Positions 11,225 to 33,924 of a stretch of 34,016 nt of DNA are shown here, in pieces (position 1 is the first letter of the stretch; each line of letters starts with the position of its first letter). The position numbers and the translations under genes are program-made. This DNA is from Singulisphaera sp. (GTDB taxonomy: Bacteria > Planctomycetota > Planctomycetia > Isosphaerales > Isosphaeraceae): the NCBI GenBank assembly GCA_027451445.1, contig DAIDJG010000612.1, positions 1 to 34,016 on the forward strand, given 5' to 3'. The notes below the pieces were generated by a model that made no database searches, was not told the DNA's origin, and saw only the letters and a list, made by a program, of their open reading frames with translations.

Positions 11225-11488
11225 GAAGGAGAATAGATAACTCCCCCCCTTGGGAAGGGGGGGTTGGGGGGGTGGGGAGTAGCCGTGGCCATTGGCCTGG
11301 TGCCTTCAGGCTCGCAGACCGTGCCCTTCGGTTTCTGGGTGATGATGGGGTCGCGAAGGTCTAGCGCTGTCGCCTGCGGGCACAGGCCAATGCCCACCCC
11401 CCCTAACCCCCCCTTCCCAAGGGGGGGAGTTATATGTTGGTTCCGCGCAAACGGAAAAACGACGCCCGACCATATCGTGCGCCATTCG
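11225..11488. repeat. G-tract inverted-repeat element, copy 1
   Basis: The core is a pair of about 40-bp inverted arms, 11237-11280 and 11393-11432, built from C7-TT-GGG-AA-G7 blocks, enclosing about 112 bp. The two arms are identical except for one extra base. The pairing extends inward: 11287-11299 (GGCCATTGGCCTG) matches the complement of 11383-11395 at 12 of 13 positions. Flanks beyond the arms (GAAGGAG on the left; TATATG and a CCGCGC-AAACGGA hairpin on the right) are conserved in a second copy at 31200-31460. The left arm has four G-tracts on the plus strand and the right arm four on the minus strand, so both could form G-quadruplexes. No transposase is nearby. It looks like a small non-coding repeat of MITE or REP type; it may also terminate transcription from the PfkB gene. 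Confidence 0.8.
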
Positions 11489-24230: not shown

Positions 24231-25196
24231 ATGAAAACTATCGACTACGTGTACAGGTTCGACCCGCAGAATCCGAGCGTCAAGCCGGCGCCTCCGGACG
24301 CGGAGGTGGCTCGGAAGAATCTCGAGGATGGGAACCGGATGTTCTCGCAATGGATGGAGAGCTGCCGCACGGGTGAGTTCGCGGCGGGGGAGCCGCAGTA
24401 CATCGTCCAGTGCAATGGTCTCGAAGTGGGCATGATCCGGACGCATGGGCAGATGCCGAAGCAGTCACCCTTCGCGGTCGTGGTCGGCTGTTCGGACGCC
24501 CGGGTGCCGACGGAGATGCTCTTTGGCCAGGGGTTCAACGACCTGTTCGTGATCCGCGTGGCCGGGAACGTGCTCGGTGACGTTTGCCAGGGGAGCATCG
24601 ACTTCGCGCTCAATGCGTTGAGCGACAGCGTAAGGGTCCTCGTCGTTTTGGGGCATAGTGGCTGCGGGGCCGTGACGGGCGCGGTCGATTCGTATCTGCA
24701 ACCTTCGAAGTTCTGGTCACGCGCCACGTCTCCCATGCTGCGGTCGATCCTGCAACGCATTTTCGTGGCGGTGCGCGAGGCGGCGAATGGGCTCGAGGAA
24801 GTTTGGGGTGCGAACGCGCGCGCGGTGCCGGGTTATCGCGAGGCGCTCATCGAGACGGCGGTCTGCCTGAACGCCGCGATGACGGCATTCGATATGCGGG
24901 CTGAAGTGGAGCGGGCGGCGAAGTGGGAGATCGAAGTGCTCTACGGCGTCTTCAACTTGAATACGCACCAGGTTTGTATGCCGGTCAACCCGACGTCGAA
25001 GCCGTCCGAGGATAACGTGCATTTGGCCTATGCGCCGAATAACCCTCGTGATTTCAAGAGCCTGGCCGTCCGTATGGCCCAGATTCTGCATCCCGACGCG
25101 GTTCAAGCCGCTCGTGGAAACGGCGAGGCCGGGGCGCATGGCCGGGTGATTCCGCCAGACGCGATCGCGACTCTGAAGACACCTGACGGTCATTGA
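24231..25196 (+). CDS. Beta-class carbonic anhydrase
   Basis: This 321-residue protein is a beta-carbonic anhydrase, a zinc enzyme that interconverts CO2 and bicarbonate. The zinc site is complete: Cys87 and the Asp89-Arg91 dyad in GCSDARVP, and His142 and Cys145 in GHSGCGAVTG. The intervening FVIRVAGN stretch is typical. It is longer than compact members (about 200-230 residues) because of an N-terminal region, an insert around 45-75 and a C-terminal tail of about 70 residues after the last core strand (about 250-321) with no clear motif. There is no signal peptide. The ATG at 24231 lacks a strong ribosome-binding site. The 206-bp gap after the penta-heme gene suggests its own promoter, but I could not identify one. 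Its stop overlaps the convergent radical SAM gene by 7 bp. Confidence 0.93.
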   Translation: MKTIDYVYRFDPQNPSVKPAPPDAEVARKNLEDGNRMFSQWMESCRTGEFAAGEPQYIVQCNGLEVGMIRTHGQMPKQSPFAVVVGCSDARVPTEMLFGQGFNDLFVIRVAGNVLGDVCQGSIDFALNALSDSVRVLVVLGHSGCGAVTGAVDSYLQPSKFWSRATSPMLRSILQRIFVAVREAANGLEEVWGANARAVPGYREALIETAVCLNAAMTAFDMRAEVERAAKWEIEVLYGVFNLNTHQVCMPVNPTSKPSEDNVHLAYAPNNPRDFKSLAVRMAQILHPDAVQAARGNGEAGAHGRVIPPDAIATLKTPDGH

Positions 25197-26065
25197 GTAC
25201 GGTTCGTCGTGCGTAACCAGTGGCCGGCGAAGCCGTCGGGACCGACGCCGACGCGGCCGGGCAGGTAGCGTTCGGCGATCGCCGCCATTTCGTCTCGGTA
25301 AGAGAGCTCGACCGATCGCGGGTCGATGGCCGACATGGCCCGCGGCAATCGGGTCTTCAGGGTTCGGGAACCGAGCGGAGTCCCATCACCGCCGATGAAG
25401 TGGTCGAGGACCACGGCGTCGGCAACCAAGGCGATTCGGCCGAAGAATTGCTGCGGGTCCTCGATGGGAAGCAGCGGCGAAACGGTGATGATCGTGGAGA
25501 GCCCGGCGGCCTTCAACGCGGCCGCGGCCTCGAACCGCCGGGTCAGCGAGCTTGCCGGGGGCGGCAAGCCCGGCAGACGCTCGCGGTCCGTCTCGATCGA
25601 GACGTGGACTCGTAACGCCGACTTTGTTGCCAGGCGCTTCAACGAATCAATCGCATCCGTAACGCGGTGGGAATGCGTCTGGACGATCAACCCGTCGGGC
25701 GGCAGATCGCACATCGCTTCGAGCACGGAACGCGTGATCTGGTGGCGCGCTTCCTGGTGCGGGAACGGCTCTGTCGCGCTGGAGAGGAAAATCACGAATC
25801 CGCCCCGTTTTTCGCGCGCCCAGGAACGCTCGCGCTCATACGCGGCGCGGTAAGCTTCAACCGCATTGGTGCGGACTTCGAGGAAGCTTCCCCAGGCTCG
25901 CCCTTGCGTGACGTAGACATTGTGTTGAACGTAGCACCCCACGCCGCAGAGCGACGCGCCCAGCGGACAGCCGCGGTAGGGTTGAAGCGAGTGTGAGCAG
26001 ACATCGTTCAGGAAGCCCGACGTGCGCGTCAGGATCGATTTGACCTCAGTGAACTCCGTGATCAC
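25190..26065 (-). CDS. Radical SAM protein (SPL-like) with atypical cysteine spacing
   Basis: This 291-residue protein resembles spore-photoproduct-lyase-like radical SAM proteins. The N-terminal PYRGC segment is where the 4Fe-4S cluster motif begins, followed later by FLSSATEPFPHQE, LIVQTHSHRV and VHVSIETDRE, which fit the strands of a radical SAM barrel. The usual CxxxCxxC spacing is replaced by C-PLGASL-C-GVG-C-Y, that is C-x6-C-x3-C. The GTG at 26065 is chosen because it overlaps the TGA of the GH5 gene (26064-26062) as GTGA, giving translational coupling; the frame continues upstream to 26458 only as a shadow of GH5. Linkage to a glycosidase and an MFS transporter suggests a role with the same substrate. 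The reaction is unknown. Confidence 0.82.
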   Translation of the reverse strand: MITEFTEVKSILTRTSGFLNDVCSHSLQPYRGCPLGASLCGVGCYVQHNVYVTQGRAWGSFLEVRTNAVEAYRAAYERERSWAREKRGGFVIFLSSATEPFPHQEARHQITRSVLEAMCDLPPDGLIVQTHSHRVTDAIDSLKRLATKSALRVHVSIETDRERLPGLPPPASSLTRRFEAAAALKAAGLSTIITVSPLLPIEDPQQFFGRIALVADAVVLDHFIGGDGTPLGSRTLKTRLPRAMSAIDPRSVELSYRDEMAAIAERYLPGRVGVGPDGFAGHWLRTTNRTQ

Positions 26066-27921
26066 GGTTCGCCTCGATCCCTCCGTGTCACCACGAGAGT
26101 CTGCCGACCGGCGTCTGGACCGCTCCAAAGGAGCGTCTGAGTCGCGGCATCGTGACGCACGTCTCCGCTCGAAATGCGCCACTCCAGACCATCGGGATAC
26201 TGGACGCGCGGGACGTAGACTTCCGTGGGATGCCGAGAGCCGTCGGACATCATCTCCAGCGTGTATACGCCAGCCTCGAATTGCTGGCGCAGCGGACGGC
26301 CGGCACACGCTCGAACGCACGGCCGGCAGAAGCCTCGCACGGCCCGACCTCCGCTGTCGGGGTCGTTGGGGTCGCTCTGCTGGTCGCGACTGAAGATCGA
26401 GAGATCCTCCTGATTCCACTGATCGCCCCACGCGTTGGTGTTGTCGGACGTGTAGCACCAGATCGTGGCGTGGGCAAGGTGGGCGTCGAGTGCGTTGTAG
26501 TAGCAGGTGAGCGCTTCGACGTGGGAGGAAAAATCGCCGGACGTGAACGCAGCGCCTTCGTCGAGGTCGAAGGGCAGGCCGAATTCACCGATCAAGGTCG
26601 GCACGACCCCAAGATCGCGGTGTGACTCCTGAACCAGCGTCCCGATCTGGTCGGCCATCGAATTCCGAACGGCCTCGCGGCCCCTCACGGATTTGAGCGA
26701 GCCCCAGACGAGCGTTGCGTCCGGATCGAAATGCTTGGTGGTCAAGGTCAGCAAATCATACCAGTGACTCGCGTTCACGACGGGAATGCCCTCAGGAGCC
26801 TCCAGCGGCTCCGAGGAGCCGGGTTCGCCTTCGATGAAGAGCAACGCATCCTGATGCACTTGCCGCAACGCTTCGCCGTAGCGCTTGAGGAACGGCCGTA
26901 GTCCGTCGCGCACAAAACGGGCCTCGGCGAAGTAATCATCGCGCAGGAGCTGCGGCCGATCCTCGCTGACGAGATCCCACACGCCGTGCTTTCTCCAGAT
27001 ATCCAGGCTCGGATCTTTCCACGCGGAAACCCCTTTGGGATTGAGGAGGACCGTGTGAGTGACGGTTTGCCCGAGGTGCTCTCGCGTGACAACCGGGACC
27101 TCTGTTGGGAACCCTGCCGGAATCGAGAGCGACTCCAGTCCTGAGAGCCGGGGCGCGCTGTTATAGACTGGGAGCGATTCACTCAAACTGCGGATGCCGA
27201 TATAGCCTGCGCGCGGTTCGTTGAGACTATCGTAGCCCAGGACGTGCGGCATCTCTCGGAGCCGTTCGGCGAGGGTCGTCAGGGCGCCAAGAAAGTGTCG
27301 CTGAAGGATGTGCTGGATGTTTTCGCCGTCGATCAACGACTGCGGCGCAAGCCGCTCGCCCGCGAAGAAGAGCGTGAACATCGTCGCGCTGGCAAGCCGG
27401 TACCAGTTGTTCGGCCAGATCATCCGGCCGTAGGCGGGATACCGCCCCTTCATCGTGATCGCGGCCTCCGACGCATCAAGGGCGGAGAGTTCGAATCCCG
27501 CGAGGTCCAACGTCCACGCCGGCGCCCCATCGCCGCCCGAGAAGCGGCTCCAGGCGTCCTGGTGAGGATCGACGAATACGTAGAGGCCATACTCACCGGC
27601 CTTGCGAACGACCTCCGTGAAGTAATCGAGGTAGGCGAGATCGTAGATCCCCGGCCCTTCGTGCTCGATCGCTTCCCAGGTGGTGAGAAGGCGGATGACG
27701 TTGAACCCCCAGTGGCGCAGACGCCCGAAGTGCTCGTCCGCCTCCTCGAGCGGAAACGGCCGTCCGATGAAGTTGGCATCCTGCGCACCGTGCGGGTCCG
27801 CAGCATTGACGGGGTGACAGCCGGTCGGCGTCTTCGAGCTTCCGCCCAGGTTCACGCCCCGCAGCAGCAGGGCACGTCCCAAGGGATCGAGAAACCAGTG
27901 TCCGTCGGTCTTGAGTGCCAT
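26062..27921 (-). CDS. Glycoside hydrolase family 5, subfamily 12-like (glucosylceramidase/steryl-glucosidase relatives)
   Basis: This 619-residue GH5 (beta/alpha)8-barrel enzyme has the acid/base glutamate in SLNEPRAGYIG (Glu235) and the nucleophile in LIGEFGLPFD (Glu446). The stretch VDPHQDAWSRFSGGDGAPAW recalls fungal GH5_12 beta-glucosidases acting on glucosylceramide and sterol glucosides, as does the overall length with a C-terminal beta-sandwich (from about residue 520). The reaction would be release of glucose from a hydrophobic aglycone; this is inferred from resemblance. There is no signal peptide, so it should act in the cytoplasm, and the MFS transporter 15 bp upstream may import the substrate. 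The ATG at 27921 is preceded by GGGAG. The radical SAM gene overlaps its stop. Confidence 0.88.
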   Translation of the reverse strand: MALKTDGHWFLDPLGRALLLRGVNLGGSSKTPTGCHPVNAADPHGAQDANFIGRPFPLEEADEHFGRLRHWGFNVIRLLTTWEAIEHEGPGIYDLAYLDYFTEVVRKAGEYGLYVFVDPHQDAWSRFSGGDGAPAWTLDLAGFELSALDASEAAITMKGRYPAYGRMIWPNNWYRLASATMFTLFFAGERLAPQSLIDGENIQHILQRHFLGALTTLAERLREMPHVLGYDSLNEPRAGYIGIRSLSESLPVYNSAPRLSGLESLSIPAGFPTEVPVVTREHLGQTVTHTVLLNPKGVSAWKDPSLDIWRKHGVWDLVSEDRPQLLRDDYFAEARFVRDGLRPFLKRYGEALRQVHQDALLFIEGEPGSSEPLEAPEGIPVVNASHWYDLLTLTTKHFDPDATLVWGSLKSVRGREAVRNSMADQIGTLVQESHRDLGVVPTLIGEFGLPFDLDEGAAFTSGDFSSHVEALTCYYNALDAHLAHATIWCYTSDNTNAWGDQWNQEDLSIFSRDQQSDPNDPDSGGRAVRGFCRPCVRACAGRPLRQQFEAGVYTLEMMSDGSRHPTEVYVPRVQYPDGLEWRISSGDVRHDAATQTLLWSGPDAGRQTLVVTRRDRGEP

Positions 27922-27936
27922 CGGAAACTCCCTGCG

Positions 27937-29145
27937 TTAAAAGCTGACCTCGTCAGGGATGCGTTTGCGAAGCGGTTGTCGAATCTCGTCGGTACGCTCG
28001 AGTTCTGGTAGCCAAGCACACAACACGCTGGACGCGAATGCTCCCGCGGCAAAAACAAGGAACGCAACGTCCGGACGAAGTGCGCGATTGCACAGGGTCA
28101 TCGTTCCCGCCACCACGGCGCCTCCCAAACCCCATGTGACTCCCATGGTGATCGAGCTCGCAACCCGCTGCCCCTCGGGCAACAGCCGCTGGCCGTAGCT
28201 GACGAGGATCGGAAGCGTGGCGCCGAGCAAACAGCCGGCGCTTCCCACGAGCACGACCAGCACGCTTCCGCCCGTCGCCGGGCAGGCGATCAACATGGGA
28301 GTTGCCAGCAACGGGAACGTCCAGAGTACCTTACGCTCGTTCGCTCGCTGTGCGAAGACCGCACATGCCAGACTTCCCAGTCCGACCGACCCCAAAAAGA
28401 CCGATTGCACGACGCCGATCTGTTCGTTGGACGCTCCCCTGCCCTTCAGCACGTAGGCGAGCGCCATCGGCACTCCCAGCGCGGGCAAAACGCGGAGGAT
28501 CCCGATTGCCAGCACCAGGAGAACGCTCACCCCCCGGCCGCGAAGCAGTTCGGTCAAGGCGATTGGGTCGCGTGTGCTGGAGGTTGCACCGTCGTCGGGA
28601 GCCGAACGCAGGCTCCAGCCCAGAAGCGCCACGCCCGCCAGTCCCCAGGTCAGTCCCCAGATGAGCGTTCTCATCGGGAAATGCGTGGTGATCAAACCAC
28701 TGTAGATCGGACCCACCGCCTGGCCAAGATAACCCCCGACCGCGAACACCGACATCGCCCGGCTCCGTTGCCCCGGCGACGAGGCGCCGGCCATCGCGGC
28801 TGCCTCGGGATGAAACGCGGCGATCCCAAGCCCTCCGGCGACGAGCATCGCACAAAGCGCGGGAAACGTCGAAGCCCATCCCAGACTGCTGAGACAGATC
28901 ACTCCCACGCCGGGCCCGAACCAGATCAGCCAGTGACCCCGAGCGCGGTCGCCCCAGTAGCCAAAGGCCAACTGCGTGATCGAGGAGGCCAGGCTCCAAC
29001 CGAGATAGGCCCACTGGATTCCCGCCTCGTCAAGGGCGAGACTCTGTTGAAGGTCGGGCCAGAGCGGTTGGATCGAGGAGGCGTAGGCGTCTACCAGAAA
29101 ATGGCCCAGGGTTATGAGCCAGAGCGTTCGTGGAAGAGCGTTCAA
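27937..29145 (-). CDS. MFS transporter
   Basis: This 402-residue major facilitator superfamily protein has about twelve hydrophobic segments and a charged loop after the second helix (FGYWGDRARGHW), the usual place of the MFS motif A. GLGIAAFHPEAAAMAG and SVFAVGGYLGQAVGP resemble the Fsr (fosmidomycin resistance) group of exporters, but direction and substrate cannot be read. The start at 29145 is a TTG with only GGA nearby, so the true start is uncertain; the first helix (LWLITLGHFLVDAYASS) is close behind it. The gene lies 81 bp after the amidohydrolase and 15 bp before GH5, all on the minus strand. Import of a glycoside or export of a hydrolysis product are both possible. Confidence 0.88.
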   Translation of the reverse strand: MNALPRTLWLITLGHFLVDAYASSIQPLWPDLQQSLALDEAGIQWAYLGWSLASSITQLAFGYWGDRARGHWLIWFGPGVGVICLSSLGWASTFPALCAMLVAGGLGIAAFHPEAAAMAGASSPGQRSRAMSVFAVGGYLGQAVGPIYSGLITTHFPMRTLIWGLTWGLAGVALLGWSLRSAPDDGATSSTRDPIALTELLRGRGVSVLLVLAIGILRVLPALGVPMALAYVLKGRGASNEQIGVVQSVFLGSVGLGSLACAVFAQRANERKVLWTFPLLATPMLIACPATGGSVLVVLVGSAGCLLGATLPILVSYGQRLLPEGQRVASSITMGVTWGLGGAVVAGTMTLCNRALRPDVAFLVFAAGAFASSVLCAWLPELERTDEIRQPLRKRIPDEVSF

Positions 29146-29226
29146 GTGCGATGTCCGATGGCGGGGAGTGAAACCGGGCTTAACGCCGGTCGAAAACGCT
29201 GGCGAGAGCCCGGTCGTGTTCGGACA

Positions 29227-30984
29227 TCAGGGCTTGCTCTTCGAGTCAGACTGGTAGACCAGCTTTCCTCCTACCATCGTCCAGAGGACCTGGGTTTCTT
29301 TCAAGTCGTTCTCGGGACAGGTCAGAGGATCGCGATCCACCAGTACCAGATCGGCGAGCTTGCCCCGTTTGATGGAGCCTTTCTCGTTCTCTTCGAAATG
29401 CAGCCGCGCGTTATTGATGGTGTAGAACCGAAGCGCCTCCATGCGACTCAGACGTTGGTCCGCATTGAGCACATCGCCCCCTTCGTACTTGCGCGTTACC
29501 GTGACCCAGATCCCGAGCCAGGGGTCCCAGGGATTCGTGGCCCCAAGAGGATCGAGGCGGATCATGTGGTCGCTCCCGCCGCCGATCGTCAGGCCGGCGT
29601 CGAGCCACTTGCGGTAGGGGTGGAACCAGGTCATGCGCTTGGGTCCAAGCACGGATAGTAGCGTGCGCGCGTCCTTCCAGATCCAGGCCGGCTGAAGGTC
29701 GGCTCCGACGCCGAGCTCGGCGCAGCGTTTCAGGTTGTCGGCCGACGTGAAGTTGGCGTGCGTTATTAGCCAACGCCGGCCTCGAATGCCGATCGTGCGA
29801 TCGGCCTGCGCAAACGCGGTCAGCAGCTCATCCATGCCGGCTTCGCCTGCGGTGTGCGCGGTCATTTGCCAGCCACGTCGCGCCGCCTCTTCCGCGATGA
29901 GGGCGAGGGTCGGGGGAGGAATAAAGAGCAAACCATGGTAGTCGGGCTCGGTGATCTGATAGGCTGGCCCGACGCCCCAGGGCTCGCGCATGTAGGCTGT
30001 GCCATTGAGCATCCCTCCGTCCAGAAAGACCTTCAACGGCCCAATGCGGACCCAGAGATCGCCCATGCCCGATGGGCCGTTCGGCTCGCCGCCCCGTTCG
30101 TACGATGCCAGACGGTTGAGCCCCTTGACGATCGCTGCGCGATCGCCGAACGGCGGCGAGAGAACACGCGTCGCGTTGACCCGCACGGTCAACTCGCCCT
30201 TGTCACGCAGCCCTCGGTACACATTCAAAGCCTCGTCGCTCGCGCTCCGGTCCGCCACGCTCGTGAGCCCTCGCGAGTTATAGAGGCGAAAGAGTTCGCG
30301 AACGCGCGCGACGTCGGCGGCGTCGGTGTCCGAGTAGGCGTTTGAGGGGAGTCCCTTGAGCTTGGAGTACGAGTTTCGCATCATCCCCGTCGCCTCGCCG
30401 GTCTTGGGATCGCGAACGATCCGGCCCGCTGGAGGATCGGGGGTATTCTTATCGATGCCCGAGATCTCGAGCGCCTTCGAGTTGACGACCCCCGCCGGTC
30501 CCCCCTGGTGCAGCACGGGATGATCGGGCGCAATCGCGTCGAGCTCGGCCTTCGTCGGGAACCGGCTCTCCGCGAGCCGGGTCGGGAACGCGTAGCGGAC
30601 GACGATCCACGTCCCCTTCGGCTGAACCTTCACTCGCTCGGCGATGTAGGCTTTCACGTCCGCGAGCGTGTCGTACGCGGGGATCGGATGGTCTTTCTCG
30701 CTGTTGGCCGCCCCCAGGGGGTGGACATGGCTGTCGTAAAGGCCGGGCAGCAGCGTCTTACCACCAGCGTCAATCACATGCGTTTTGGGGCCGATCAAGG
30801 CGTCAACGGCCACGTTCGTGCCAACTGCGACGATTCGGTCACCCTGAACCGCAACCGCTTGGGCGATCTCATCGTGGCCTTCGATGGTGATGACGTGGGC
30901 GTTGTGAATCACCAGGTCGGCAGGGTCTGCTGCGCCCACGGCGCCGAGGGCGCCGACGACCAGCCATCGACGTATCGAGGTCAT
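29227..30984 (-). CDS. Exported amidohydrolase of the YtcJ type (Amidohydro_3)
   Basis: This 585-residue metal-dependent amidohydrolase has a short N-terminal signal-like segment (to about residue 19, AVGAAD). It has the family opening DLVIHNAHVITIEG, the metal motif LPGLYDSHVHPLGA with His86 and His88, and the further histidine in WQMTAHTAGE. The motif TRLAES-x-PTKAELDAIAPDHPV is typical of YtcJ relatives, and the end has KRGKLADLVLVDRDPL. Such enzymes hydrolyse amide or ester-like bonds in small cyclic or acyl substrates; the substrate is unknown. The ATG at 30984 has AAGCGAG upstream; an in-frame ATG at 31026 would add a basic stretch before the signal segment and is less likely. It is probably the first gene of the MFS-GH5-radical SAM operon. 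Confidence 0.88.
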   Translation of the reverse strand: MTSIRRWLVVGALGAVGAADPADLVIHNAHVITIEGHDEIAQAVAVQGDRIVAVGTNVAVDALIGPKTHVIDAGGKTLLPGLYDSHVHPLGAANSEKDHPIPAYDTLADVKAYIAERVKVQPKGTWIVVRYAFPTRLAESRFPTKAELDAIAPDHPVLHQGGPAGVVNSKALEISGIDKNTPDPPAGRIVRDPKTGEATGMMRNSYSKLKGLPSNAYSDTDAADVARVRELFRLYNSRGLTSVADRSASDEALNVYRGLRDKGELTVRVNATRVLSPPFGDRAAIVKGLNRLASYERGGEPNGPSGMGDLWVRIGPLKVFLDGGMLNGTAYMREPWGVGPAYQITEPDYHGLLFIPPPTLALIAEEAARRGWQMTAHTAGEAGMDELLTAFAQADRTIGIRGRRWLITHANFTSADNLKRCAELGVGADLQPAWIWKDARTLLSVLGPKRMTWFHPYRKWLDAGLTIGGGSDHMIRLDPLGATNPWDPWLGIWVTVTRKYEGGDVLNADQRLSRMEALRFYTINNARLHFEENEKGSIKRGKLADLVLVDRDPLTCPENDLKETQVLWTMVGGKLVYQSDSKSKP

Positions 30985-31014
30985 GGAATTCGCTCGCTTG
31001 GGTCGTATTTTCAA

Positions 31015-31025
31015 TGATGTCATCA
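31015..31025. promoter_or_regulatory. 11-bp palindrome upstream of the amidohydrolase gene
   Basis: TGATG-T-CATCA is a perfect palindrome 31 bp before the amidohydrolase start. It could be an operator for the amidohydrolase-MFS-GH5-radical SAM operon, but no regulator gene lies next to it. Confidence 0.3.
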
Positions 31026-31064
31026 ACCGTTAACCTCTGATTTGAAGCAACTCGCGAATCCTCG

Positions 31065-31199: not shown

Positions 31200-31460
31200 A
31201 GAAGGAGGAATATATAACTCCCCCCCTTGGGAAGGGGGGGCTGGGGGGGTGGGGGAGTAACGTTCGCTGTCGGCCCAGCGTCTACGAGCTTGCGGAGGAT
31301 CGCCTTTCTTGTCATCGGCAACGGCGGATTCGCGGCGGTCGAGCACCGTTGGCTGTGGGCGACGGCCCAGGCCCACCCCCCCTTCCCAAGGGGGGGAGTT
31401 ATATGTCGCTCCCGCGCGAGCGGAGAAATGACGGATGGGCATAGCGTGTGCCATTTAAAC
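31200..31460. repeat. G-tract inverted-repeat element, copy 2
   Basis: This is the second copy of the element at 11225-11488. The left arm is 31215-31258, with C7-TT-GGG-AA-G7 and two more G-tracts; the right arm is 31372-31404. The right arm has lost one T-A-A-C7 block relative to copy 1. The flanks match copy 1: GAAGGAG and TATAACTC on the left; AGTTATATGT, a CCGCGCGAGCGGA hairpin, AATGACG and GCCATTT-AAAC on the right. The 110-bp interior has diverged more but still shares short stretches with copy 1. No coding capacity is credible. The copy occupies the middle of the 577-bp gene-free region 30985-31561, whose other contents are the hairpins at 31065-31124 and a palindrome. Confidence 0.8.
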
Positions 31461-31561: not shown

Positions 31562-33847
31562 TCAATCCTCGGCCGATTCCGCCAGGATCTTTCTGTACGC
31601 CTTGCGTGCCACATCATACGCCGCCTCGGCCGCGGCCAATTCCTCCTTGCGCATCGCCTTGATCTTTTGCGACCAGCATTGATCGACGCTCTTGAGGCAC
31701 CACTCGGCCGACTTCTTGGATGTGCGGATTGGCTTGCCATCCACGACGACAAACACGGGGTTGGTGTGCGACGACGGGTAGATCCGCAAGGCGACCCAGC
31801 TCGATTTGTCGAGCTTGACGTCGAACGACAGATCCTGGAACGAGCCGTCCGCCGTGATCTCTTCGCGTGCAACCGGAGACCCGTTGACGACGACCTCGAC
31901 AGGAACCTTTCGCGACGAGCCAATGCGGGCCCGTTCGAGCTCCCAGTATGGTTTTGCTTCCAGGGACCGCGAACGCAGTTCGTCGAGGGCGGGGGTAAAC
32001 TCGGACTCGAGACGCGCAGCCACCTTGGCGGTCACCTTGACCGATCCGGGTGCCGCGAGCGTACGCTCGCCGCCGGTCTCGACGCCGTCGACCTGGAAGT
32101 CGACGAGGTGGCTCTTACCGTCAGTGACGTAGGAATGGCCCTGCTTGATGCCCTCGCACCAACGATCGAAGTCGAGCTTGCCGTCGGCCAGCTTCACATA
32201 GACCCGGCCCAGCCCAACGCGCTCGCCGTAGATGCACGGGAAGTCGGTTTCGCCGCTGATCTTGCAGCGGTACCCGCAATTCAGGGTGTGATACCAGATA
32301 TTGAGCTCCCAGGGAGCCGGGGTGTCGACGGTCGAGATGAAGTCCACCGCGTCGTGTACCACGTCGACGATGTACTCGTTGGCGCCGATGCCGTCGAAGG
32401 GCGGCACTTCAAAGCTGGGCAAGACGTTCTTCTTAAGCTTGAGTCCCCATCCCGAGTGCGAGAACCCGACGACGCCGCCCTGCTCCTTGCCCCACTTCAG
32501 GACGGGCAGGTCCCAGCTTGGCCATTCCTCAATCCGGGTTGTGCCCGGGTAGTCGTCTTCCTTGAGCCTGAGGAGGCAGAGGTGGCCGGTGTGCGACGAA
32601 GGGAAACCGGAAACCTCGACGTCGTAGCGCATGAGGTATTCGGGCGTCGACAGCGGATCGAGCTTTCCGCTGAAGAACTGCTTCTGTGCGTACCAGCACG
32701 GTCCCCAACTCAACACGCAGCCCACGTCGAGGTCTTCGCCGAGGATGTGGCGCATCATGTCCTCAGGTCGCACGCCCTCGGTTGGGCTCTCGTAATGGCC
32801 GCAGCCGGCCGCGTGAACGTGGTGGTCGCCCGAGAACCAGTTCCGTTTCGCCAGATGCACCCAGCGCTTCAATCGGAACGACTCGCGATGCGTCTTCGCC
32901 TTGGGCACTTCGATGGTTCGTGTCTCCAGGACGTACTCGGGACCCCGCGTGACCTCTACGGTGTATTTACCGGGCGCCAGGAGCACCGTTTCGCCCGATT
33001 TACGGTAGATCTGCGGGTGGAAGAAAAAGTCGGGGGCCAGGCGACGCGACTGCGAGGGACACACGCGGTTCTGCGAGTCGCGGAAGATGAACGAGCCGGT
33101 GGTCGGCCGGCCGTCGTCGTCGAGCACCTCCAGCGTCACGTCCACGGAGGGCTCGCATGTGAAGAGGATGTCGACGTCGCTGCGAAACCCGAGATCCTGG
33201 GTCCCCTGGCCGACATTGAAGCGAAGTTTCGACTCGCGATGGCCAGAGTCACGGCTGTAGATCTGGATGATCCGATATTCCAGGGCGAGGCCGGAAAGCG
33301 TGCGCTTGAGCGGCCGGTCGCGGAACGAGCTAACATCCATCCAGCGCTGGGGAACTTCATGCAGAGGAACGGTCGTCCTCGGCGATGGGCTGCCGCTGGA
33401 CCTTTGATAGAGCGGCGCGGCGTTGGGACTGTCGACGGCCAGTTCCGCTGTGACGCCGGCTTCGTTGCGGACCTTAACCAGAAACACGCGCCAGCCGTGT
33501 TGAACGAGTTGGGGCGAAGCCGGTCCTTGTACAGCTTTGACACGGCTCTCCGGATTGATCTCAATCCCGATCAGACAAAACGGATCGAGCGCCTCCTGGA
33601 GCCCACGCCCACCCGCCGAGGCGTCGGTTTGCTGGAGCGCCTGGTCGACCTTGGCCCTGACCGCTTCAGGCAAGGGCTGGCCGAGCTGTTCGAGTGCTTC
33701 GACGACGCGCCGAACCTGGGCCGAAAGGGGTTGGAACTCGACGTCGTTGTAACGCGGCAAGTTATCGCCGCGCGCGGGTATCACCGATCCCGCCGCGAGG
33801 AGAATCAGGAGCAGCAAAAATCGGGGGTTTGGGACAGCGTGTCGCAT
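31562..33847 (-). CDS. Exported CehA/McbA-like PHP-domain metallohydrolase
   Basis: This 761-residue protein has a signal peptide (about 1-25) and a beta-rich N-terminal half. A PHP-type metal-binding domain then begins at GDHHVHAAGCGHY (Asp341, His342, His343, His345). Further likely ligands are in VVGFSHSGWG, DGIGANEYIV and SGETDFPC. The C-terminal part (SHLVDFQVDGVETGGERTL onward) is a beta domain common in CehA/McbA relatives, and the protein ends in a basic helical tail. CehA and McbA hydrolyse carbamate or ester bonds of carbaryl, but planctomycete members probably act on other substrates. The ATG at 33847 follows AGGGG by 8 nt and starts the signal peptide. A weak promoter is visible upstream. 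The repeat element follows the gene. Confidence 0.85.
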   Translation of the reverse strand: MRHAVPNPRFLLLLILLAAGSVIPARGDNLPRYNDVEFQPLSAQVRRVVEALEQLGQPLPEAVRAKVDQALQQTDASAGGRGLQEALDPFCLIGIEINPESRVKAVQGPASPQLVQHGWRVFLVKVRNEAGVTAELAVDSPNAAPLYQRSSGSPSPRTTVPLHEVPQRWMDVSSFRDRPLKRTLSGLALEYRIIQIYSRDSGHRESKLRFNVGQGTQDLGFRSDVDILFTCEPSVDVTLEVLDDDGRPTTGSFIFRDSQNRVCPSQSRRLAPDFFFHPQIYRKSGETVLLAPGKYTVEVTRGPEYVLETRTIEVPKAKTHRESFRLKRWVHLAKRNWFSGDHHVHAAGCGHYESPTEGVRPEDMMRHILGEDLDVGCVLSWGPCWYAQKQFFSGKLDPLSTPEYLMRYDVEVSGFPSSHTGHLCLLRLKEDDYPGTTRIEEWPSWDLPVLKWGKEQGGVVGFSHSGWGLKLKKNVLPSFEVPPFDGIGANEYIVDVVHDAVDFISTVDTPAPWELNIWYHTLNCGYRCKISGETDFPCIYGERVGLGRVYVKLADGKLDFDRWCEGIKQGHSYVTDGKSHLVDFQVDGVETGGERTLAAPGSVKVTAKVAARLESEFTPALDELRSRSLEAKPYWELERARIGSSRKVPVEVVVNGSPVAREEITADGSFQDLSFDVKLDKSSWVALRIYPSSHTNPVFVVVDGKPIRTSKKSAEWCLKSVDQCWSQKIKAMRKEELAAAEAAYDVARKAYRKILAESAED

Positions 33848-33924
33848 GCGTGAACCCCTAACGAAGGAGGGGGAAACGTTCCGAGGGTGGGATTGCGAGC
33901 GCAAAGGACTCGCCTAACATCCAT

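Follow-up and report, generated by a model that had tools for sequence, protein, structure and literature searches.

We judge the chances evenly balanced that three genes of the window form a genus-restricted operon for β-glucoside uptake and hydrolysis, built onto an older gene cluster, together with a separate, co-transcribed function carried by a radical-SAM-like protein with the fold of spore photoproduct lyase (SPL). The window is the whole stretch of DNA that was analysed (34016 bases); it is one entire contig of a 10.9 Mb genome in 622 contigs, which we take to be that of a planctomycete of the family Isosphaeraceae. By analogy, the MFS transporter would import a small glucoside whose aglycone is hydrophobic, and the cytoplasmic GH5_12-like enzyme would cleave one glucose from it by a retaining, two-glutamate mechanism. 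The hydrolases of the cluster may act on the remainder or on similar compounds. The radical-SAM-like protein would serve a function of its own, and its substrate would not specifically be the glucoside.

The initial annotation described the three genes as a tightly packed operon, and its coordinates, strand, gap and overlap are all correct (Table 1). The MFS and GH5 genes are separated by 15 bp (27922-27936), and the GH5 and radical-SAM-like genes share the four bases GTGA (26065-26062). The operon was also placed downstream of an amidohydrolase, and that gene does lie upstream of the MFS gene, on the same strand across an 81-bp gap (29146-29226); the MFS-amidohydrolase link is seen again in two genomes from a different genus. 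On the opposite strand, a carbonic anhydrase-like gene (24231-25196, plus) is convergent with the radical-SAM gene, their 3′ ends overlapping by 7 bp.

Table 1. Positions of the features in the window (feature, coordinates, strand, remarks)
MFS transporter	27937..29145	minus	402 aa, TTG start
GH5_12-like beta-glucosidase	26062..27921	minus	619 aa
Radical-SAM-like protein	25190..26065	minus	291 aa, GTG start overlaps GH5 stop
Cysteine loop CPLGASLCGVGC of the radical-SAM-like protein	25934..25969	minus	Cys33, Cys40, Cys44; CX6CX3C replaces CX3CX2C
Amidohydrolase (Amidohydro_3)	29227..31026	minus	Pfam; belongs to older cluster
CehA/McbA-like metallohydrolase	31562..33904	minus	NF038032 2.8e-92; opens older cluster

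The trio is real and kept, within the genus only, on the two species by which the genus was sampled. In the congener (genome G001, locus L071) the MFS, GH5 and radical-SAM genes stand in identical order, with an MFS-GH5 gap of 10 bp and, again, a 4-bp overlap between the GH5 stop and the radical-SAM start. The trio proteins are 68-75% identical between the two species. Their dN and dS values (NG86) are 0.26 and 1.27 for MFS, 0.18 and 1.37 for GH5, and 0.20 and 1.32 for the radical-SAM gene, and the trio is under purifying selection between the two congeners.

Conservation of the three-gene order, which the initial annotation had put forward as a check, thus holds inside the genus and fails beyond it. 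At E 1e-30 the GH5 was found in two of the 45 family genomes, both of the window's genus, and in one of the 392 genomes of the phylum sample, the window's own; a widespread trio was rejected on these counts. At the looser threshold of E 0.001, 13 of 59 relatives matched; in the 11 outside the genus only short stretches align (best 3.3e-18), and these are probably other GH5 subfamilies. The spread of the GH5 in planctomycetes is patchy, which suggests horizontal gain. Searched with this protein, plasmid records gave 14 matches, in 9 of which at least 80% of the query is covered at a single place, and viral contigs gave no relatives.

The GH5_12-like assignment is supported. The protein matches Pfam Cellulase (1.3e-16) and Glyco_hydro_5_C (5.1e-10), and its best PDB matches are SglA (8exd, E 2.4e-104) and Sgl1 of Cryptococcus (7lpo, 2.9e-93), both of which we take to be GH5_12 members; the next, endoglycosylceramidases 5ccu and 5j14, reach 4e-16 at best. 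It is, by sequence, a bacterial relative of the GH5_12 sterylglucosidases. Its supposed intracellular location is also supported: no N-terminal signal was seen on inspection by eye.

In the Sgl1 report (PMC8497620), the glucose-binding and catalytic residues are Lys47, His142, Asp144, Asn269/Glu270, Tyr453, Leu458, Glu520, Trp570 and Glu587, and Trp584 is the cap, a Trp restricting the pocket to a single sugar. The counterparts in the window's GH5, in the order of Sgl1, are K30, H120, D122, N234/E235, Y388, L393, E446, W488, W502 (for the Trp584 cap) and E505, mapped by hand on the PDB alignment, in which the chain numbering runs one ahead. All of these mapped residues, the cap included, are invariant in the five aligned bacterial sequences, and the two catalytic Glu are present. 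The likeness to Sgl1 and SglA thus extends over the catalytic-domain sequence, the catalytic and glucose-binding residues and the pocket-limiting Trp; the window protein differs in being bacterial and in having only 619 aa, the two chains being of 779 and 797. The bacterial GH5_12 proteins of Rhizobium, Sphingobium and Leptospira are 36-44% identical to it over nearly the whole length. The Sphingobium relative (L100:7989-9784) carries the annotation of two hypothetical proteins, and its match falls into three pieces.

The neighbours of these bacterial GH5_12 genes differ from those in the window: other transporters are adjacent, or none, and the four stretches hold no annotated radical-SAM gene in gene tables that are incomplete. 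In Rhizobium K84 and R. tumorigenes, sugar ABC transporter genes lie divergently beside GH5_12. The Sphingobium record has the order TonB receptor, MFS, GH5_12. In Leptospira the gene is between those of a patatin-like phospholipase and a lipoprotein, and the closest transporter gene encodes a sodium:solute symporter and lies about 3 kb away. The window's MFS itself scores 116.4 bits with Pfam MFS_1 (1.8e-33), above the gathering score of 33.4. By sequence it has no solved relative, the one match (0.095) being to an unrelated protein; import is therefore argued by analogy. Because the GH5_12 genes of Rhizobium and Sphingobium adjoin importers, we favour import, and the MFS likely brings in the glucoside. 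The role of importer, for which the initial annotation named it a candidate, is upheld in part: importer genes stand by GH5_12 in the two Rhizobium records and the one from Sphingobium, but the Sphingobium MFS is not homologous to that of the window (BLASTP).

The opposite direction of transport, in which the MFS would be an exporter, the cluster would detoxify or release a compound and the GH5 would unmask or trim a glucoside inside the cell, is unlikely. In its favour, MFS_1 is uninformative on direction, efflux proteins are among the weak NCBIfam matches (0.056 and 0.12), with the phosphoglycerate transporter PgtP ranking first (3.3e-6), and six other loci with homologues of the MFS (L104-L109) gave no match to the other cluster proteins. 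Against it, two alphaproteobacterial lineages have importer genes next to GH5_12.

The uptake and hydrolysis operon appears to have an older base. G010 and G027, genomes from a second genus of the family, have the order CehA-like hydrolase, amidohydrolase, methyltransferase, MFS, and neither has a match at 1e-30 to this GH5 or to the radical-SAM gene. In the window the order is CehA-like, amidohydrolase, MFS, GH5, radical-SAM, and in the congener it is CehA-like, methyltransferase, MFS, GH5, radical-SAM. The window's amidohydrolase is 76% identical to, and in the same place as, those of G010 and G027; the closest one in the congener is 44% identical and on a different contig. The CehA-like hydrolase is 73-84% identical in L071, L102 and L103, and the homologous MFS frame of L103 also has a TTG start, at the aligned position. 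The methyltransferase has no match in the window's genome at 1e-20, and in the congener it is an open frame; a broken gene there was considered and rejected, as both of the TGA counted precede its ATG. From these gene orders we infer that the GH5 and radical-SAM genes were appended behind the MFS of an older four-gene cluster.

The window carries two copies (11232-11438 and 31204-31412) of a MITE-like palindrome, ~207-209 bp long and with arms around CCCCCCCTTGGGAAGGGGGGG; one copy separates the CehA-like gene from the amidohydrolase. Across the genome the arm matches 135 times in forward and 136 times in reverse orientation (at most 2 mismatches), and the backward control gives no match in either.

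The third protein of the operon is a new variant that merits separate study. With Pfam Radical_SAM (0.0013) it scores 19.4 bits, under the cut-off of 29.5. The NCBIfam families PA0069 (2.8e-17), mobile pair B (1.8e-13) and Rv2578c (2.1e-11) are detectably homologous, but the bit scores are far under the cut-offs (62.8 versus 360 bits for PA0069, NF033668), and no NCBIfam model reached its own. No solved relative was found by sequence. The cysteine loop reads C-P-L-G-A-S-L-C-G-V-G-C, that is, CX6CX3C in place of the canonical CX3CX2C. Other spacings exist in the superfamily, for example CX2CX4C in ThiC. Among the papers that literature searches listed (few subscription journals were covered), none was by its title about a radical SAM protein with CX6CX3C, and those on the chemistry of PA0069 and Rv2578c yielded no lead.

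The altered spacing marks a clade. The loop was read in 53 loci: it is CX6CX3C in 37, carries a Ser in one further locus of that clade, and is CX3CX2C in the 15 more distant ones; the new spacing therefore occurs in 37 of the 38 clade loci. Three further family members (L130-L132), read only in a later motif check, all have it as well. The exception (L036:5992-6855) has Ser (TCC) for the middle Cys and may be an error, because it comes from a metagenome assembly. Plasmid records matching the protein number 10, none at more than 60% identity, and the motif is canonical in both that were read; the distant homologues, 15 loci and two on plasmids, thus differ from the window's clade. A maximum-likelihood tree of 46 rows gives the clade a support of 99/97, and it holds all 36 CX6CX3C rows together with L036. 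The label of loop spacing requires two changes on this tree, apparently a single origin of CX6CX3C and a single loss. The exact sister of the clade is unsure because two plasmid rows sit on long branches. Members come from Planctomycetota, Latescibacterota and Walliibacteriota, the contigs of the latter two being all metagenome assemblies.

In its AlphaFold model (pLDDT 95.0, pTM 0.92) the protein is predicted to have the radical SAM superfamily fold. The top structural match, at Z 17.4 over 242 residues (3.4 Å, 16% identity), is to spore photoproduct lyase; the six SPL entries score Z 16.8-17.4 with 14-16% identity, and the next match scores 14.3. From their recognised titles, we take the listed matches to be radical SAM enzymes. 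The likeness to SPL lies in the predicted fold; the low identity and the cysteine spacing set the two apart. An SPL-like enzyme of nucleic acid repair, co-transcribed by chance, would agree with this leading match and with the varied neighbourhoods described below, but the identity is only 14-16%, and no Cys outside the loop is shared by the whole clade: the most frequent such column, at Ser149 of the window protein, holds Cys in 26 of 37 aligned clade rows and lacks it in the window. We regard a repair enzyme as distinctly improbable.

The genomic distribution of the radical-SAM gene is wider than that of the trio. At E 1e-30 it was found in 16 of the 45 family genomes, all 16 with CX6CX3C, and 14 of these are without this GH5. 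In the phylum sample the count is 21 of 392 (CX6CX3C in 20, the canonical motif in G101), versus one of 392 for the GH5; the 392 genomes are apparently the same in both searches, judging by their handles. Fifteen genomes were inspected that have a match at 1e-30 or better, and 10 of them also have a second, weaker one. We searched 37 neighbourhoods with tblastn for 12 proteins drawn from those neighbourhoods, some of them identified by Pfam. An HpcH/HpaI aldolase was found in four, and each of the other eleven in 1-3. This count omits L031 and L033 (equal to L071 and L114) and L130-L132, and includes L129, which has the canonical motif; some stretches end at contig ends. Longest-frame gene calls were often in the wrong frame in this GC-rich DNA and served as a guide only. 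The aldolase lies near the radical-SAM gene in L059, L060, L065 and L114, and a 2-hydroxyacid dehydrogenase does so in three of these four.

In this sample, then, the radical-SAM gene is not tied to the GH5 or to any single pathway. The initial annotation had the MFS import a lipid or sterol glucoside, the GH5 free it, and the radical-SAM protein modify the released aglycone or sugar; this last step is the least supported of that proposal. Because no tested neighbour occurs in more than four of the 37 neighbourhoods, a dedicated role on the aglycone or sugar finds no support, and action specifically on the GH5 product was rejected on the varied neighbours and the 14 family genomes without the GH5. 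The order of the three genes is kept in the congener together with the 4-bp overlap, at 75% identity, which would also fit a real coupling of GH5 and radical-SAM protein. Given the absence of a constant neighbour among the 12 tested and the uneven counts in family and phylum, we consider the full route very unlikely.

Conservation within the clade bears on whether the altered loop still works. Our alignment includes all but one of the 38 clade loci (L082, with unknown residues, was omitted), thus 37, and 7 of the 15 canonical loci. L002 was left out as it is on the same contig as L031, L033 equals L074 in sequence, leaving 36 different clade rows, and L130-L132 are outside it. The 37 clade rows share 34 invariant positions, among them Cys33 and Cys44; Cys40 is kept in 36. 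S95, T98 and E105 are invariant in all 44 rows, canonical ones included, and would bind SAM. That the clade lost radical SAM chemistry, its loop binding another metal or being structural, would account for the new spacing, the Cys-to-Ser member L036 and the Pfam score under the cut-off, but is hardly credible with all three loop Cys in 36 of 37 clade rows and S95, T98 and E105 unchanged across 44.

Retained chemistry is thus the preferred reading for this protein: in an SPL-fold lineage, the [4Fe-4S]-binding loop would have been rebuilt from CX3CX2C to CX6CX3C, and the rebuilt loop probably still binds the cluster and SAM. The broader proposition that a radical SAM lineage of SPL fold, with both spacings changed, carries out an undescribed reaction in at least three phyla and was recruited to the glucoside operon seems to us possible, though short of an even chance.

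The GH5_12 part of the operon is a bacterial, transporter-linked relative of the sterylglucosidases, and its substrate is open to direct assay. Should the CX6CX3C loop bind a catalytic cluster, searches that rely on the CX3CX2C motif or on the Radical_SAM cut-off would miss the lineage, and the clade would be a natural test of how much change a cluster-binding loop tolerates.
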